DNA of 64,000 nt from Mycobacterium sp. Marseille-P9652 (lineage in GTDB: Bacteria > Actinomycetota > Actinomycetes > Mycobacteriales > Mycobacteriaceae): contig NZ_CACRUY010000002.1 of assembly GCF_902652685.1 (NCBI RefSeq), positions 1 through 64,000 on the forward strand. The letters run 5' to 3'. The first letter of the stretch is position 1; each line of letters opens with the position of its first letter. The notes below the pieces were generated by a model. That model saw nothing but the letters and a program-made list of their open reading frames with translations. It ran no database searches and was not told the origin of the DNA. A program made the translations under genes and the position numbers. This document shows positions 6,249 to 12,313 of the stretch, in pieces.

Positions 6249-6548
6249 GTGAGCACGGGCCAGGCTTTTGACACCATTCCGGCAGCGGAGATACGGCGGG
6301 ATGACAACATCGAGTTCCCCGCCGACAACCCGGACGTGAAGTGGCACTATGACGAGAACAGGGCATCGAAGCCCCCATGCAACCAGCCGGGGGTGCAGTG
6401 GTTCGTCGAGGAGTTGGGGGAACCGCTGCTCGGCAGCCCGTTGGGCGATCTCTACACGTTCATCGTGAAGGAGGTCGGCGGGGCGGGAGCCGACGTGGAG
6501 GTCAAGATCAGGGGTCATGTGCCTGTTCGTCGTTACCGGCGTAACTGA
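6249..6548 (+). CDS. Hypothetical small protein
   Basis: A 99-residue protein with no family I recognise. Residue use looks protein-like rather than random: a mixed N-terminal half (DNPDVKWHYDENRA), then LGDLYTFIVKEVGG and a terminal strand VEVKIRGHV. No signal peptide or membrane segment is visible. An alternative ATG exists at 6207, but the GTG at 6249 sits correctly behind a -10-like box. Its 3' end overlaps the convergent rimI-like gene by 41 bp, which weakens the call. Confidence 0.45.
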   Translation: MSTGQAFDTIPAAEIRRDDNIEFPADNPDVKWHYDENRASKPPCNQPGVQWFVEELGEPLLGSPLGDLYTFIVKEVGGAGADVEVKIRGHVPVRRYRRN

Positions 6549-7008
6549 GCCTCCGCATCGTGACCGCGTCGGTGCCGTTGTAGTACCCCGGACGCAGGCC
6601 GACCTGGTCGAACCCCACGCTGCGGTACAGCGCGATGGCCGCCTCGTTGTCGCACCGCACCTCCAGATACACGGTGCCGCCCGCCGCGAACGTCAGCAGC
6701 TCGTTCAACAGCCGGCGGCCGACGCCGTGCCCCTGGTACGCCGGGTCCACGCCGATATTGCGCACCTCGTAGAAGGCCACGCCCGTAAAACCCGTGGAAC
6801 CCAGACGCGCGATCCCGGCGTAGCCGATCAGCGTGCCGGCGCGGCGAGCACCCACGAAATGGTTGTCCTTGCCGGCTAGCTCACGTGCGAAGACCGCCGC
6901 CGACCATGGCGTATCACCCGCGAACAGCAGTGCGTCCAACTCGGCGCACCTGTCGACGTCGGCCGGTAGGAGTGGTCCGAGGAGCACCGGCTCCGGGGGC
7001 GTGGTCAT
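6508..7008 (-). CDS. rimI: RimI-like GNAT N-acetyltransferase
   Basis: A 166-residue GNAT-fold enzyme matching ribosomal-protein S18-alanine N-acetyltransferase RimI. The acetyl-CoA loop is in GVDPAYQGHGVGRRLL (about residues 90-105), after the FYEVRNIGV strand; the C-terminal part has VYLEVRCDNEAAIALYRSVGF and the GYYNGTDAVTM tail typical of RimI. As I recall, mycobacterial rimI normally lies between tsaB and tsaD; here neither neighbour is present, so this may be a paralogue or a displaced gene. A 31-bp piece of its 5' end is repeated, with two mismatches, at 9800-9830. Confidence 0.72.
   Translation of the reverse strand: MTTPPEPVLLGPLLPADVDRCAELDALLFAGDTPWSAAVFARELAGKDNHFVGARRAGTLIGYAGIARLGSTGFTGVAFYEVRNIGVDPAYQGHGVGRRLLNELLTFAAGGTVYLEVRCDNEAAIALYRSVGFDQVGLRPGYYNGTDAVTMRRLSYAGNDEQAHDP
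6936..6966 (+). repeat. Direct repeat, copy 1 (inside rimI 5' end)
   Basis: A 31-bp sequence matching 9800-9830 at 29 of 31 positions in the same orientation. It encodes the PADVDRCAEL region of the RimI-like protein on the minus strand. Confidence 0.7.
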
Positions 7009-7170
7009 TGGCCCGCGACGGTCGACGGCGCCGGGATTGCTAAGACTTCCATTCTGGAAGTGTCCCTGAACTGCGAAACCTGTGCGCGCGGCAGGTTCGA
7101 ACCTGCTGGGGAGTTTGCCAGATCACGAGAATCGAACCGCTGATTGAGTTTTCGAAGTCGGTCGCCCCAG

Positions 7171-7950
7171 TCAGCCCCGGCGGGCGACGTCTTGGCTCAG
7201 GAGCTGCGGCCAGGTCTCGACATCGGCCGGGGTGTGCGCCACGGTGAGCGTTGACCGCGGCATCAGTGCGGCAAGCGATTCCGCTGTCGACATCGGATGC
7301 GCCGGGTCGCCGACCCAGGCCAAAATCGTCGTCGGCACATCGATTCGTGCGACCGCTTCGCGAGCGGGCAGGTCGCTGAGAGCCGCGCCTCGAAACAGTG
7401 ACGGCAGCAGCGCGTCGGCCACATCGGGAACCGTTTCGGGCGCGCCGACCGTGGCTGGTGGCGGAGTCGCCTTACGCGCCGCCGCGATGAATGCCCCGAC
7501 GCCCTCGGCCTCGATCAACTCGGCCGCAACCCGGTAGATCGTCGCCTGCGCGGGCCGGGTTTCCCAGGCGGTGGCCGGCACCATCAGCGTGAGGCCGGCG
7601 AAGCGGTCCGGCTCGCGGGCGGCGGCATGCAGCAGCGTCCCGGCACCCATGGACGGGCCGACTCCGTGCACCTGTTCGCCGGGAAACCATTTGTCGAGCA
7701 GTTGCAGAAGATCCTCGGCAAGGCATTCCCACCGGTAATCCTCCGGGACCTTGCGCCCCGTGGACTTGCCATGGCCGCGTGCGTCGTACCGCAGCAGTCG
7801 GGTCCCGCTGAGGCCCCTGCCGAGGTCGAGATTGAGCACCCGGTCACGCGCGCGGCTGGAGGTAAGCCCGTGCAGTTGAACTACCGGATGACCACCTTCG
7901 TCGCTCAGTTCAACCGCAAGCTCTGCTCCGGGAACCACGAAAGTGGACAT
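7171..7950 (-). CDS. Alpha/beta-fold hydrolase
   Basis: A 259-residue serine hydrolase. The oxyanion-loop HG lies at residues 27-28 (VVQLHGLTSS), YDARGHGKS follows at about 55-63, and the nucleophile elbow is GPSMGAG with Ser100. The late Asp (VGDPAHPM) and His (VAHTPAD) complete a plausible triad. The chosen start is the ATG at 7950; upstream sequence is arginine-rich and non-protein-like. It is divergent from the condensation-GNAT gene with 80 bp between start codons, so the two probably share a regulatory region. Substrate is unknown; an acyl or ester product of the neighbour is a speculative possibility. Confidence 0.78.
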   Translation of the reverse strand: MSTFVVPGAELAVELSDEGGHPVVQLHGLTSSRARDRVLNLDLGRGLSGTRLLRYDARGHGKSTGRKVPEDYRWECLAEDLLQLLDKWFPGEQVHGVGPSMGAGTLLHAAAREPDRFAGLTLMVPATAWETRPAQATIYRVAAELIEAEGVGAFIAAARKATPPPATVGAPETVPDVADALLPSLFRGAALSDLPAREAVARIDVPTTILAWVGDPAHPMSTAESLAALMPRSTLTVAHTPADVETWPQLLSQDVARRG

Positions 7951-8018
7951 CACGCAACTCTTTTCACGACCCGACGGCTCGCCCCGCGCTGACCGAGCAT
8001 TCAGGCTATCTGGGGCGT

Positions 8019-8024
8019 TAGGGT
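8019..8024 (+). promoter_or_regulatory. -10 box (TAGGGT) for the condensation-GNAT gene
   Basis: A TANNNT hexamer six nt upstream of the ATG at 8031, consistent with a leaderless transcript. A TAGCCT on the minus strand (8003-8008) could serve the divergent hydrolase. Confidence 0.38.
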
Positions 8025-8030
8025 ACCGCC

Positions 8031-9797
8031 ATGCGGCTGACCAACGTGGCGCACCTGCGGCTACCCTTCGGACGACTCTGGGGCTATGACGTGTCGGTGT
8101 CTGACCTCGGCCGGCAGCTGCCGGTGTCCTTTGACCAGCGCATACACGTTGGTGCGGGCGCACGACCCGGCTCCTGGATGGCTCTGTCCATTCGGTTGCC
8201 GACGGGGGTCAGCCGCCAATCGCTGGCCGATGCGTGGCTGGCCGTGATCGCCCGCCACGGCACCCTACGAACGGCATTCACGCCCGGGGCTGACGGCGAT
8301 CCGCGGCTGCATGAGATCGATATTCACCCGGGGGAGTGGGTAGAGCATGAGATCGCTCCGGGTCAGGCTGTCAACGACGCACTGCGAGTAGTTCTCAATG
8401 CGACCTGCTCGCCCTATCAGCGGCCCTCACATCGGTTGTGTGTGTTGGAGACCGCCGCCGGATTGACGGTGGTGATCGCTGCCGACCACGCCCACGTGGA
8501 CATGTGGTCGATGCTGGTGATCGCCCGGGACCTGTTGTCGATGCTCGCCGACGCGCGGATCGGACGCACCTTGTCGCTGCAGCCTCCGCCGGCATTTGTC
8601 GTGCACACGCAAGCACTATTGGACCGTTCCGCGGCACCGGACTACGTGCGCGAACGATGGGCACAAATCATCAGCGACAGCGGTGGGGTGATGCCACGGT
8701 TTCCGCTGCCGTTGGGTGAGTGCGGGCCGCATCCGGAACGCGTTGAAGTGCGCGACGTGTTCGATGTCGATGACGGCGCCGCGTTCGCCGCGCAGGCACG
8801 CGACGACGGTGTCTCGACGCTGGCACTCGCTGTGGTCGCCATGACTGCGGTGACCCACGAGTTGGCCGGGGCGCCGCTGCGCGCGGTCTTCCCCGTGCAC
8901 AGCCGATTTGAAGACAAATGGCACGACTCGGTGGGCTGGTTCATCACTAATTCGGTCCTGGAGTCGGCGGTCGCCGAGCCGCACGCCGCGGCCGCCGCCG
9001 TCAAAGAAGCCGTGCAGCTTGGTTCCTGGCCACTGGCCGACGTGCTGGCTCCGTGGGGTGGAATGCCCGTCGCGCCCGGCATGTTCGCGATTTCCTGGCT
9101 GGACCAAAGCAGACTTCCGGTGCGCATCGACTCGGTCGGACTCGACGCCCAGTATGTGAGCGCGAGCGTCCACACCGACGACGTCATGCTCTGGTTCATC
9201 CAGGACGAGTCCGGGCTCCATCTGCGATGCCGCTACCCAGATACCGCGGAAGCACGCATCAACGTGGGGGCGTGGCTGGACCTGTTGGTGGCGCGCCTAC
9301 AGGCACTGGCGCAGTCCTCGGTTCGAGGACTGCTGCGGGTAGCGGGCCGCACATTTCGTGTGCAGCGCGCGACGCGCGAACACGTGGGCGTGATCGCCCA
9401 GCTGCTCTCCGACGACGAGTTCGGTCAGGAGCGGGAAGGCGCCGAACTCGAACGCTACGAGGCGGCCTACGACATCGTCGTTCGCAACCGATCCAACTTT
9501 CTCGGAGTCGTCCTGAACAGTAGCGATATGGTCGTCGCGACTGTGCAATTGACGATCATCCCCGGCCTTTCCCGCGCCGGCGCCACCCGGCTGCAGATCG
9601 AGGGATTACGGGTCGCCCAAGCCGAACGCGCACAGGGTCTTGGTACTGCGCTCGTCGAGTGGGCACACAACTACGGCCGAGCACACGGGGCACGGCTGGC
9701 GCAGGTGACCACTGACGGGGCTCGGGAAAGGGCTCGGGCGTTCTATTGCCGGCTCGGGTATCACGCCGCCCACGTCGGACTGAAATGCACCATTTGA
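8031..9797 (+). CDS. Condensation-domain / GNAT acetyltransferase fusion protein
   Basis: A 588-residue two-domain protein. Residues about 1-430 form a condensation (NRPS-C/PapA-type CoA-dependent acyltransferase) domain: RHGTLRTAF at about 75-83 matches the family's RHExLRTxF motif, the catalytic HxxxD is His153-Ala-His-Val-Asp157, and SVGWFITNSV near 295 matches the later VGxFVNT motif. Residues about 445-588 form a GNAT domain with the acetyl-CoA loop in ERAQGLGTALVEWA and the C-terminal ARAFYCRLGY strand-helix. Neither domain lacks key residues. No adenylation or carrier domain is nearby. An enzyme that acylates and acetylates one small molecule or lipid is a reasonable inference; I recognise no named homologue. 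Confidence 0.75.
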   Translation: MRLTNVAHLRLPFGRLWGYDVSVSDLGRQLPVSFDQRIHVGAGARPGSWMALSIRLPTGVSRQSLADAWLAVIARHGTLRTAFTPGADGDPRLHEIDIHPGEWVEHEIAPGQAVNDALRVVLNATCSPYQRPSHRLCVLETAAGLTVVIAADHAHVDMWSMLVIARDLLSMLADARIGRTLSLQPPPAFVVHTQALLDRSAAPDYVRERWAQIISDSGGVMPRFPLPLGECGPHPERVEVRDVFDVDDGAAFAAQARDDGVSTLALAVVAMTAVTHELAGAPLRAVFPVHSRFEDKWHDSVGWFITNSVLESAVAEPHAAAAAVKEAVQLGSWPLADVLAPWGGMPVAPGMFAISWLDQSRLPVRIDSVGLDAQYVSASVHTDDVMLWFIQDESGLHLRCRYPDTAEARINVGAWLDLLVARLQALAQSSVRGLLRVAGRTFRVQRATREHVGVIAQLLSDDEFGQEREGAELERYEAAYDIVVRNRSNFLGVVLNSSDMVVATVQLTIIPGLSRAGATRLQIEGLRVAQAERAQGLGTALVEWAHNYGRAHGARLAQVTTDGARERARAFYCRLGYHAAHVGLKCTI

Positions 9798-9799
9798 GG

Positions 9800-9830
9800 C
9801 CAACTCCGCGCACCTGTGGACGTCGGCCGG
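9800..9830 (+). repeat. Direct repeat, copy 2 (rimI-like remnant)
   Basis: It starts 3 bp after the stop of the condensation-GNAT gene and matches 6936-6966 at 29 of 31 positions. Read on the minus strand it gives ...LAPADVHRCAELA, the N-terminal segment of a RimI-like protein, then stops resembling it. It is probably the scar of a duplication or insertion. Confidence 0.6.
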
Positions 9831-10129: not shown

Positions 10130-11059
10130 ATGGCGCAGCACATCGTGATCACGGCCTCGGGCAGCAACGTCTCGATGTGGGACACCACGCCGCCCCAACC
10201 CGCGGCGGTGGCCGTCGCGCTCAATCAATCGCTGTGCTACTGGCAGCCGCTGGGGAACTACCCGGCCAGCGTCACCAACCCGCAGATGGGTCAATCGGTG
10301 CAGGACGGCGTCAACGAGATCGTGCGCCTGATCAACGACGTGTATCCGCCGGGGAATCCCCGAGGCACATCGTTCATCTTGCTCGGCTATTCGCAGGGCG
10401 CCATCGTCGTCAGCCACTTCGTTCGGGACGAACTGCTCAGCGCCACCGGGCGCTGTGCCGGGCGAGCCGGCGACCTGGTGGCCGTGGGTGTGTGGGGAAA
10501 CCCGTGCCGGCTGCCCGGCTGGGCGAGCGGCAACCAATATGCGGGCTGGCCGTTGCCCGCCGACCTCGACGGCGTTGTCACCGGGGGGATCGCGGGGCCG
10601 GATTGCCTTCAGCCGCAGCACGTCGTGCCGCACCTGGCAAACCCGGTCACGCATTTCTGGGGCGAATGGGTCAACACGATCGGCGACGGCAACGACCTGT
10701 ACACCGACGCTCCGGTCGGGCCGCCGTCGGGCAGCCCGGCTGGATTGAACATTTCGACGTCCGGTCCGCCGTGGGTAAACGAGCCGCCCGCCGGCGTGTA
10801 CGAGACGCAGATCTACAACATCGTGCAGCAATGGTGGCCGAACGTCCTCGCGATCGCGCTGGACATCTTCCGGATCTTCGGGCCCGACCTGTTCGAACAA
10901 CTCATGGGTATCGCCGAGGCGGTCATCAACGGCGGTATGTTCCTCGCCGCCGGACCCAATGCGAGCCACTACACCTACGACATAACCCCGATCATCAACT
11001 TCATCGGCCAGGCCGCGGCGGAGACACCGCCATTTCCTTCCATCGCGTCGCAGATGTGA
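10130..11059 (+). CDS. Mycobacteriophage LysB-like mycolyl-arabinogalactan esterase
   Basis: A 309-residue alpha/beta serine hydrolase. It resembles phage lysin B, which releases mycolic acids from arabinogalactan: YWQPLGNYPA at about 37-46, LGYSQGAIVVS with nucleophile Ser88, VWGNPCRLPG at about 121-130, an acidic GDGNDLY segment (Asp186 or Asp189) and a late SHYTYD with His280 occur in the LysB order, as I remember it from phage D29. No signal peptide is visible, as in phage LysB. Start at 10130 is chosen for the SD and because upstream codons are not protein-like. No holin, LysA or structural genes are nearby. The cutinase gene follows. Confidence 0.72.
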   Translation: MAQHIVITASGSNVSMWDTTPPQPAAVAVALNQSLCYWQPLGNYPASVTNPQMGQSVQDGVNEIVRLINDVYPPGNPRGTSFILLGYSQGAIVVSHFVRDELLSATGRCAGRAGDLVAVGVWGNPCRLPGWASGNQYAGWPLPADLDGVVTGGIAGPDCLQPQHVVPHLANPVTHFWGEWVNTIGDGNDLYTDAPVGPPSGSPAGLNISTSGPPWVNEPPAGVYETQIYNIVQQWWPNVLAIALDIFRIFGPDLFEQLMGIAEAVINGGMFLAAGPNASHYTYDITPIINFIGQAAAETPPFPSIASQM

Positions 11060-11280
11060 CTGAAAGGGCCGGTTGCATCGGGTTTTCCGCCACAAGCTGA
11101 GGTGTACGCCTGCAAGAACATGGCCGCTCCTGCGGCGCCTGAGTGGAACGATCGGTCCGTGCACACTTCACCGGAAAAGCACCTATTTGACCGGTTCCAG
11201 AACAAATCGGCCGTGTTGTTCTTCCTTCGCATTTTCGGCCCTTGAGCCTGCCCGGAAATTCGCGGTTTAGGGAGTCGCAT

Positions 11281-12069
11281 ATGTGGGCACACTGCGCCAT
11301 GTTTGCGCGCCCCATCCCTCGTTTCCTTGCTCCTGCGATAGTCGCGACCTCGGGTGTCAGCATTTCCGTCCTCGCGACGGCGATCCCGGCCGCGGCCGCT
11401 CCGTGTCCGGACGTTCAGGTGGTGTTCGCCCGCGGCACCGACGACCCTGCGGGTGTCGGCCCGACCGGACAGGCATTCATCGACTCCCTGCGCCCCCGCG
11501 TTGGCGCCAAATCGCTCGACATATATCCGGTCGACTACCCCGCTACCTACGACTTCAAGAACGCAGCCATGGACGGAATCAGAGACGCGGACGCGCATGT
11601 CGTTTCAATGGCGCACGACTGTCCCAACACCAAAATGGTGCTCGGCGGTTATTCCGCGGGCGCGGCCGTCATGGGCTTCGTCACCTCGGCTGCCGTACCG
11701 GCTGGGATCGATCCGGCGACCGTTCCCAAACCGATGGACCCCGAAGTGGCCAACCACGTCTCCTCGGTTGTGCTCTACGCGTTGCCGAGCGACAAGATGA
11801 TGAATCTTTTCGGCGCCCCGCCGGTCATCGTCGGGCCGCTTTATCAAGCCAAGTCCATTCAGGTATGCGCTCCCGAGGACCCGATCTGTTCCGACGGGGG
11901 GAGTTTCGACGTACACAAATCGTATTCGACCAACGGCCCAATCATTGACCAGGGCGCGGCCTTTGCGACCAGTCGTCTCGGCGGAGGCCCTGGCGCCCCA
12001 GGGGGTGCGGGTCCTGGCGCGCCGGCGGTCGTCGCCGGGTCCCTGTCGCCTGGGGGCTTTGCTAGCTAG
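11281..12069 (+). CDS. Secreted cutinase-family esterase (CFP21/culp type)
   Basis: A 262-residue exported serine esterase. The signal peptide runs through FLAPAIVATSGVSISVLATAIPAAAA, followed by the mature start PCPDVQVVFARGT, typical of mycobacterial cutinase-like proteins. The nucleophile is in GGYSAGAAV; the catalytic Asp and His are in the EDPICSDGG...DVHKSY segment. A C-terminal tail rich in Gly, Pro and Ala (about residues 235-262) has no fold. Family members hydrolyse lipid esters at the cell surface. The start chosen is the ATG at 11281; an ATG at 11242 would place 13 extra residues before the signal peptide. Confidence 0.85.
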   Translation: MWAHCAMFARPIPRFLAPAIVATSGVSISVLATAIPAAAAPCPDVQVVFARGTDDPAGVGPTGQAFIDSLRPRVGAKSLDIYPVDYPATYDFKNAAMDGIRDADAHVVSMAHDCPNTKMVLGGYSAGAAVMGFVTSAAVPAGIDPATVPKPMDPEVANHVSSVVLYALPSDKMMNLFGAPPVIVGPLYQAKSIQVCAPEDPICSDGGSFDVHKSYSTNGPIIDQGAAFATSRLGGGPGAPGGAGPGAPAVVAGSLSPGGFAS

Positions 12070-12199: not shown

Positions 12200-12240
12200 A
12201 TGACCCTTCAAATCGGCCATTGACCTGCAAAAACGACCTG

Positions 12241-12313
12241 TGCCCCCGGCAGGATTCGAACCTGCGGCCTTCTGCTCCGGAGGCAGACGCTCTATCCCCT
12301 GAGCTACGGGGGC
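12241..12313 (-). tRNA. tRNA-Arg (anticodon CCG)
   Basis: A complete 73-nt cloverleaf on the minus strand. The acceptor stem GCCCCCG pairs with CGGGGGC before discriminator A, the D arm includes AGCTCAGGGGATAGAGC, the anticodon stem TCTGC/GCAGA encloses loop CTCCGGA with anticodon CCG, and the T arm is GCAGG-TTCGAAT-CCTGC. No CCA is encoded. It reads CGG arginine codons. It lies upstream of argS, as in other mycobacteria, and is a possible integration site for the accessory region to its left. Confidence 0.95.

Follow-up and report, generated by a model that had tools for sequence, protein, structure and literature searches.

A PapA-like condensation–GNAT fusion and its divergent hydrolase-fold partner: a proposed mobile acyl-conjugation module of Actinomycetota

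The gene considered here encodes a protein in which a PapA-like condensation (C) domain is followed by a GNAT domain. It is located in a 64,000-nucleotide stretch of DNA from Mycobacterium sp. Marseille-P9652, referred to below as the window (G000:C2:1-64000). The locus is more aptly viewed as a mobile module of two genes than as a fusion standing alone: an alpha/beta-hydrolase-fold gene adjoins the fusion gene in divergent orientation, the two genes stay together in nearly all relatives, and the pair has moved between soil bacteria as one unit. The core of the module is the C domain plus the hydrolase, while the GNAT domain is accessory. A self-contained, horizontally spreading two-gene module for acyl conjugation is proposed, and the handling or detoxification of a small molecule is considered its most likely role, with about even confidence. 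An earlier note on this DNA had presented the fusion as being without NRPS partners and had missed the hydrolase gene. The features of the locus are collected in Table 1.

Table 1. Features of the module and their positions in the window.
Feature	Position	Strand	Remarks
C-GNAT fusion gene	8031..9797	+	ATG, 588 aa, uninterrupted open reading frame
PapA-like condensation (C) domain	8031..9314	+	aa 1-428; Pfam, profile, alignment
His153, predicted catalytic base	8487..8489	+	faces PapA2 H166; kept in 41/41
Variable linker	9315..9356	+	aa 429-442; 0/14 columns invariant
GNAT domain, accessory	9357..9785	+	aa 443-585; Pfam, profile, conservation
Partner gene, 259-aa alpha/beta-hydrolase-fold protein	7171..7950	-	PF00561 E 1e-15; start codon chosen from alignment
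Divergent intergenic region, 80 bp	7951..8030		between hydrolase and C-GNAT starts
-10-like box TAGGGT, 6 nt before C-GNAT ATG	8019..8024	+	predicted leaderless transcript
Possible -10 box TAGCCT of hydrolase gene	8003..8008	-	by eye

Two families are recognized in the fusion protein by Pfam, both above their curated cut-offs: PF00668 (Condensation) at residues 50-326, with an E value of 6.4e-13, and PF00583 (Acetyltransf_1) at residues 469-577, with an E value of 2.4e-11. Among solved structures, a profile built from 41 relatives matches PapA2 best in the C part (6aef; positions 37-419, E 1.8e-11), and the condensation domains of nonribosomal peptide synthetases (NRPS) rank behind it, from E 1.4e-9. 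For the second part, the best solved structure is the GNAT protein 1z4e (positions 443-585, E 1.9e-28). The earlier description of a complete condensation domain and a complete GNAT domain in one protein holds; the boundary that it placed at residues 440/441 lies nearer 428/443. The motifs that it named are located at residues 75-83 (RHGTLRTAF), 153-157 (HAHVD), and 301-308 (VGWFITNS). The H153 and D157 of the HxxxD motif are invariant in all 41 aligned sequences, as are G302, W303, and F304. The active site of PapA2 is H166 (PMC6996325), and H153 is aligned with it. From these alignments, the C part appears to be a whole fold with a putatively catalytic HxxxD motif, of the PapA type within the CAT/condensation superfamily. 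Its relatives within its own genome share 24-28% identity with it. In the GNAT part, the loop that binds the acetyl-CoA pyrophosphate (RxxGxG/A) is present, with R533, G536, and G538 each kept in 39 of the 41 aligned rows. It is altered in two Brevibacterium loci (L107 and L113) and in one Psychromicrobium locus (L087), and intact in L112. The underlying alignment comprises 41 of 43 sequences, excluding L078, which has an in-frame stop, and L103, for which the match lacks the first residues; the hydrolase of L078 was kept in the hydrolase alignment.

Two trivial origins of the fusion were considered and rejected. An NRPS remnant would be expected beside carrier or adenylation domains, and none is present in cis or within the window. 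A domain search of the contig gives no PP-binding or AMP-binding match within the 64 kb, as the earlier note had stated for the vicinity of the gene; the nearest such matches on the contig are at C2:199522 and C2:95564. A frameshift joining two genes is rejected on the grounds that the reading frame is uninterrupted and the fusion is collinear in relatives. Among the best 80 of 135 relatives, the fusion is collinear along its full length in most loci, at 57-96% identity, and collinearity extends to residue 584 or further in all but seven: L081, where the contig ends; L108, which has the C part only; L103, in which the match starts no earlier than residue 30; and L087, L107, L112, and L113, whose matches end at residues 557-577. 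Values of dN/dS lie between 0.10 and 0.28 for the C and GNAT parts in eight pairs (L042, which would have been the ninth, was left out because of its length), and both parts are under purifying selection. The concern that the fusion might be an artefact is thereby settled, and the condensation fold that was to be sought by domain search was found. Several individual loci deviate. In Arthrobacter ulcerisalmonis (L078, 8001-9752), the C gene carries one in-frame stop beside the hydrolase match; at G970:C2:496689-497964, the C gene is in two pieces, also beside a hydrolase match; and in Psychromicrobium xiongbiense (L087, 8001-9716), the fusion protein has 571 residues, a divergent C-terminal end, and the altered GNAT loop.

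The pairing of the two genes is nearly constant. According to tblastn, 79 of the best 80 of 135 relatives have the hydrolase gene and the C gene in head-to-head orientation, and the sole exception, Microbacterium halotolerans (L091), has the fusion without a hydrolase in its 17.7-kb locus. In a genus sample of 396 genomes, some of which overlap the 80 loci, the fusion occurs in 30, once split across two contigs, and the hydrolase is found at 30/30 loci. In a phylum sample (396 genomes), a C gene scoring at least 380 bits is present in four genomes; the same four hold a hydrolase of at least 286 bits, adjacent each time, and the next-best hydrolase scores 188 bits. In a class sample (394 genomes), which shares at least the four carriers of the phylum sample, a C gene of at least 290 bits is present in 17 genomes: ten are fused, six are intact C-only proteins of 428-452 residues, and one is in two pieces. 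All 17 have the hydrolase beside the C gene. Class-sample C matches below 190 bits (G1005, G973, G967, and G1078) were regarded as distant PapA-like proteins and excluded from the carriers; the one locus checked among these weaker matches, L178, has no hydrolase. The gap between the two genes is 33-143 bp across loci, and hosts beyond Mycobacterium include Arthrobacter, Microbacterium, Brachybacterium, and Brevibacterium. The survey of the fusion and its neighbours proposed in the earlier note thus confirms that the fusion recurs, with the additions that the hydrolase is nearly always adjacent and the GNAT domain is absent from some members.

Beyond the hydrolase, little is shared between loci. 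Rough gene calls and clustering of the best 80 of 135 relatives, which missed some hydrolases known to be present and may therefore have missed other neighbours, give no third neighbour that recurs in different genera, apart from ychF, which is present at some of the loci. In the same gene calls, no conserved cluster, of lipid genes or otherwise, extends beyond the hydrolase, and no regulator or receptor gene is conserved beside the pair. PADLOC has no family for the fusion or the hydrolase at an E value of 0.01, and phage records contain no match to the fusion protein at 1e-8. Four unlinked relatives of the hydrolase are located on plasmids, in contexts without a common theme. The searches met no characterised homologue, in agreement with the earlier statement that no characterised enzyme has this order of domains, and no description of the fusion or of a PapA/GNAT/hydrolase pair was found in the open-licence literature by title and start of abstract.

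Transfer of the pair as a unit is visible at several levels. In 13/13 Mycobacterium loci that reach argS (of 14 given; hom is out of reach in L037), the dS of the module relative to the window is 0.11-0.22, roughly one third of the 0.38-0.62 obtained for argS, lysA, and hom; the lower values for the module could stem in part from codon constraint. In four carriers (L036, L037, L040, and L044), DNA homology spans approximately positions 7169-9801 of the window at ~94% identity and then stops, each end lying only a few bases from one of the two stop codons, and the argS stretch is about 86% identical. Among 41 genomes searched with argS, the nearest by identity (G017, 92%) is without the module, while one module carrier (G001) is slightly ahead of it in argS bits. 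In a tree of the fusion protein comprising 39 of the 41 rows (without L115 and L116), seven of the 14 Micrococcales rows, from Arthrobacter, Microbacterium, Psychromicrobium, and Galactobacter, are sister to Antrihabitans with an SH-aLRT support of 97. This clade belongs to a larger one of 15 rows that also contains Mycobacterium and Smaragdicoccus (SH-aLRT 100), and the remaining Micrococcales rows are placed elsewhere. The seven rows are thus nested among Mycobacteriales, and the pair breaks the species tree.

YchF could be compared at 24 of the 80 loci, where the flanking sequence extends as far as its gene. In 18/18 loci of Arthrobacter, Microbacterium, and Galactobacter, the fusion protein shares 75-81% identity with that of the window genome, compared with 61-69% for YchF. 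One Rhodococcus and one Gordonia locus show the reverse (YchF 78%, fusion 69-70%; lower in 2/2), three Antrihabitans loci have similar values (YchF 78-81%, fusion 79-80%), and in Janibacter both are 65%. A plasmid of Tsukamurella tyrosinosolvens, typed as non-mobilizable, carries the pair. Among the repeats listed, none stood out as joining the two ends of the cassette. As a separate observation, L057, L058, L064, L097, and other Micrococcales and Antrihabitans loci have the module directly at the 3' end of ychF or close to it, with two alternative gene orders; nothing in the YchF identities points to a joint transfer of ychF and the module, and the ychF end is seen as a shared landing place. 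Mycobacterium ahvazicum (L049 and L050) has two module copies of equal identity ~47 kb apart on one contig, either a duplication or an assembly effect.

Within the module, the fused GNAT domain is less constant than the separate hydrolase gene. It is absent in 6/16 intact members of the class sample, and the hydrolase pairing persists in these C-only members; Microbacterium sp. GCS4 likewise has a C protein without GNAT. Invariant columns number 128/428 in the C part and 20/143 in the GNAT part in 38 rows, leaving out L087, L107, and L112, which stop where the tblastn match stopped and lower the GNAT count. With all 41 rows, the values are 120/428 and 9/143, or 13 for GNAT when gaps are ignored. 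Pairwise distances over the 36 loci common to both alignments, whose sequences are related by descent, correlate more strongly between C and hydrolase (r 0.86) than between C and GNAT (r 0.68). Without L107 and L112 (34 loci), the correlations are 0.86 and 0.71, and 143 random hydrolase columns still give 0.80-0.87 with C. A quick C-domain tree of 56 rows, which includes five of the six class-sample C-only proteins and L108 and contains some long branches, places C-only forms in three places; among the module rows, the fusion state has to change three times, and starred branches force two of these changes. Stand-alone relatives of the GNAT domain, at about 39-51% identity, are found without hydrolase or C gene in their short loci; since such relatives exist, the fusion joined two kinds of pre-existing part. 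One stand-alone GNAT of this family (G1087:C1:377875-378336) is located elsewhere in a genome that carries a C-only module.

The hydrolase-fold partner has a candidate atypical active site. The GxSxG nucleophile (Ser100, in GPSMG) and the acid after beta-7 (Asp215) are present, and both residues, as well as His218, are invariant in 47/47 sequences. After beta-8, no histidine is conserved in columns 234-251 of these 47 aligned sequences. In the profile alignment, histidine is found at position 239 in 10/47 and at position 242 in 0/47; the latter faces the histidine of GTGHEL in the macrolide esterase EstX, which we take by its position to be catalytic. Seven unlinked relatives at 39-46% identity, with no C match in their 3.6-3.8-kb loci, share the missing histidine. 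His218, three residues past the acid, might substitute for the usual catalytic histidine. Judged from the alignment, either His218 would serve in this way, or the partner would be an acyltransferase or binding protein, or the reading of the loop would be wrong. As no histidine is conserved after beta-8, plain hydrolysis by the partner is unproved.

The upstream region of the C gene is also conserved. A TANNNT box is located 5-8 nt before the C start in 81/82 loci, compared with 74/16400 random positions in the same loci, and an SD-like site is found at the C start in 1/82; the one locus without the box at the usual distance is L087. At the hydrolase starts, the proportions are reversed, with an SD-like site in 41/71 and a box in 1/71. 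The transcript of the C gene is therefore predicted to be leaderless. By eye, TCAGGCTA faces TAGGGT at a distance of ~10 bp, both at positions 8001-8024 of the window and in the intergenic regions of L035-L108. This arrangement suggests two back-to-back -10 boxes and thus a very compact divergent promoter. A leaderless-type promoter suggests steady expression, which is atypical of inducible detoxification.

The surroundings of the module in the window contain further genes. Just beyond the hydrolase, at 6508-7008 on the reverse strand, there is a separate stand-alone GNAT gene, presumably resembling RimI. On the other side, two tandem cutinase-like genes (10130-12069, forward strand) lie between the module and tRNA-Arg/argS; the second has an E value of 1.4e-40, and the first is a weak match below its cut-off. 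A tRNA-Arg(CCG) gene is located downstream of the module at 12240-12313, as in 13/19 Mycobacterium and Mycolicibacterium loci scanned (L036-L051), and a tRNA-Arg(CCT) gene is near the module in L055 and L083.

From homology with PapA2, we infer a chemistry in which the C domain would act as a carrier-independent acyltransferase: His153 would take a proton from a hydroxyl or amine group on a small acceptor, and the acyl group would come from acyl-CoA. The GNAT domain, when present, would acetylate an amine on that molecule or on one related to it. The hydrolase-fold partner would act via Ser100 on the product or substrate of the C domain, either removing the acyl group or passing it on to a second acceptor; that the two enzymes have a substrate in common is suggested by the pairing of their genes. 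The module would most likely serve to handle or detoxify a small molecule inside the cell, perhaps one that comes from outside, and not to build a secondary metabolite. Hosts of the pair include groups without mycolic acids. Handling or detoxification is favoured over an envelope lipid role because mycolic and non-mycolic hosts share the pair, the pair travels alone, and no lipid cluster accompanies it. A more specific formulation is put forward tentatively, with somewhat less than even confidence: a mobile acyl-conjugation system of Actinomycetota with no known counterpart, in which a leaderless PapA-type enzyme, mostly with GNAT fused to it, and a hydrolase subfamily lacking the usual histidine (operating with a different arrangement such as Ser100-Asp215-His218 or as an acyltransferase) would act on a small molecule common to many soil bacteria, in detoxification or signalling.

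Other explanations have to be weighed against this role. An envelope glycolipid pathway, in which the C enzyme acylates a trehalose-like sugar and the partner moves acyl groups, as for PapA3, Chp2, and penta-acyltrehalose in M. tuberculosis, is regarded as unlikely. It is consistent with PapA2 being the closest solved relative of the C domain, with aligned FPLPLG and GWF stretches. In addition, three C-only relatives at 29-35% identity are located in tandem PapA-like arrays, one of them with a GT28-like glycosyltransferase nearby; in that array, the C-only relative itself has no Pfam match, while its two tandem neighbours have one. These arrays favour a glycolipid role and are the main evidence against detoxification. 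However, the same pair is found in Arthrobacter, Microbacterium, Brachybacterium, and Brevibacterium, which do not have mycolate envelopes, and the gene calls show no third conserved gene alongside except ychF in part of the loci. Chp2 transesterifies the product of PapA3, and the catalytic domain of Chp1 is cytosolic (PMC4183827); the partner described here has no membrane anchor by eye, unlike Chp2. A small acylated signal, made by the C enzyme and destroyed by the hydrolase, would fit the head-to-head layout, the short gap, and the near-constant pairing. Signal lactonases with an alpha/beta-hydrolase fold are known in Actinobacteria, namely AiiM (PMC4036043) and JydB (PMC9728292), and AiiM was considered as a possible identity of the partner. 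The lack of a conserved receptor or regulator gene beside the pair in the gene calls, together with the different N-terminus encoded by the AiiM primer and the different AiiM neighbours, makes such a signal distinctly unlikely.

The remaining explanations concern the proteins themselves. In the model of the earlier note, the C and GNAT domains act stepwise on one substrate, with the fusion as the functional unit. The fused form is the commoner one (10/16 intact class-sample proteins), the pyrophosphate loop is largely kept, and the GNAT part is under purifying selection. The model is nevertheless quite improbable given that C-only forms are found at three places on the C tree with at least two changes forced, that proportionally fewer columns are invariant in the GNAT part and its distances correlate less strongly with those of C, and that the hydrolase pairing persists without GNAT. 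The fusion is real, but the idea of two acyl-transfer chemistries in each chain is weakened, as the GNAT domain is missing in some members and its loop is altered in others. Finally, the hydrolase-fold partner could have no enzymatic activity and instead bind or regulate the C enzyme or its ligand, in line with the lack of a conserved histidine after beta-8 in the 47 sequences, including the seven unlinked relatives. The invariance of Ser100, Asp215, and His218 goes beyond the needs of binding alone, and very little probability is assigned to this possibility.

The module has several wider implications. Nearly all of the best 80 of 135 relatives keep both genes together, and no third neighbour was seen in every genus, a pattern that suggests a single defined reaction. 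The module would represent a portable form of PapA-type acyl transfer, outside the lipid clusters of mycobacteria, in which a domain fused to the enzyme varies more than the partner encoded by a gene of its own. Its hydrolase is a candidate for an alpha/beta-hydrolase with an atypical active site, and its C gene is a clear case in nature of predicted leaderless expression that has been conserved.

Several known systems resemble parts of the module. NRPS condensation domains have carrier and adenylation domains in cis or nearby, which are absent here in cis and within the window. The GNAT protein 1z4e, presumably BH1968 of Bacillus halodurans, is collinear with the GNAT domain, whereas it stands alone and was deposited as a transcriptional regulator. 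PcaD-type enol-lactonases and EstX (11tv) share the alpha/beta-hydrolase core and the aligned Ser and Asp with the partner, which has a variable residue opposite the histidine of EstX. The PapA genes of M. tuberculosis adjoin PKS and FadD lipid genes, in contrast to the present module, beside which the gene calls of the 80 loci show no conserved cluster; PP-binding and AMP-binding matches are likewise lacking within the window. PapA trehalose acyltransferases such as PapA2 (6aef) have the same stand-alone C fold, HxxxD motif with H166 facing H153, and FPLPLG and GWF stretches. The C domain described here is distant from them, is usually fused to GNAT, has a fixed hydrolase partner and no lipid cluster alongside, and is also present in non-mycolate genera. 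The Chp proteins have a hydrolase fold. Chp2 is anchored in the membrane, with its catalytic domain in the periplasm; by eye, the partner described here lacks such an anchor. PapA3 with Chp2 and PapA1/PapA2 with Chp1 share with the module the combination of a PapA-type C enzyme and a lipase-like partner acting on acyl groups (PMC4183827), and by this analogy PapA3 with Chp2 may be regarded as its nearest working counterpart.
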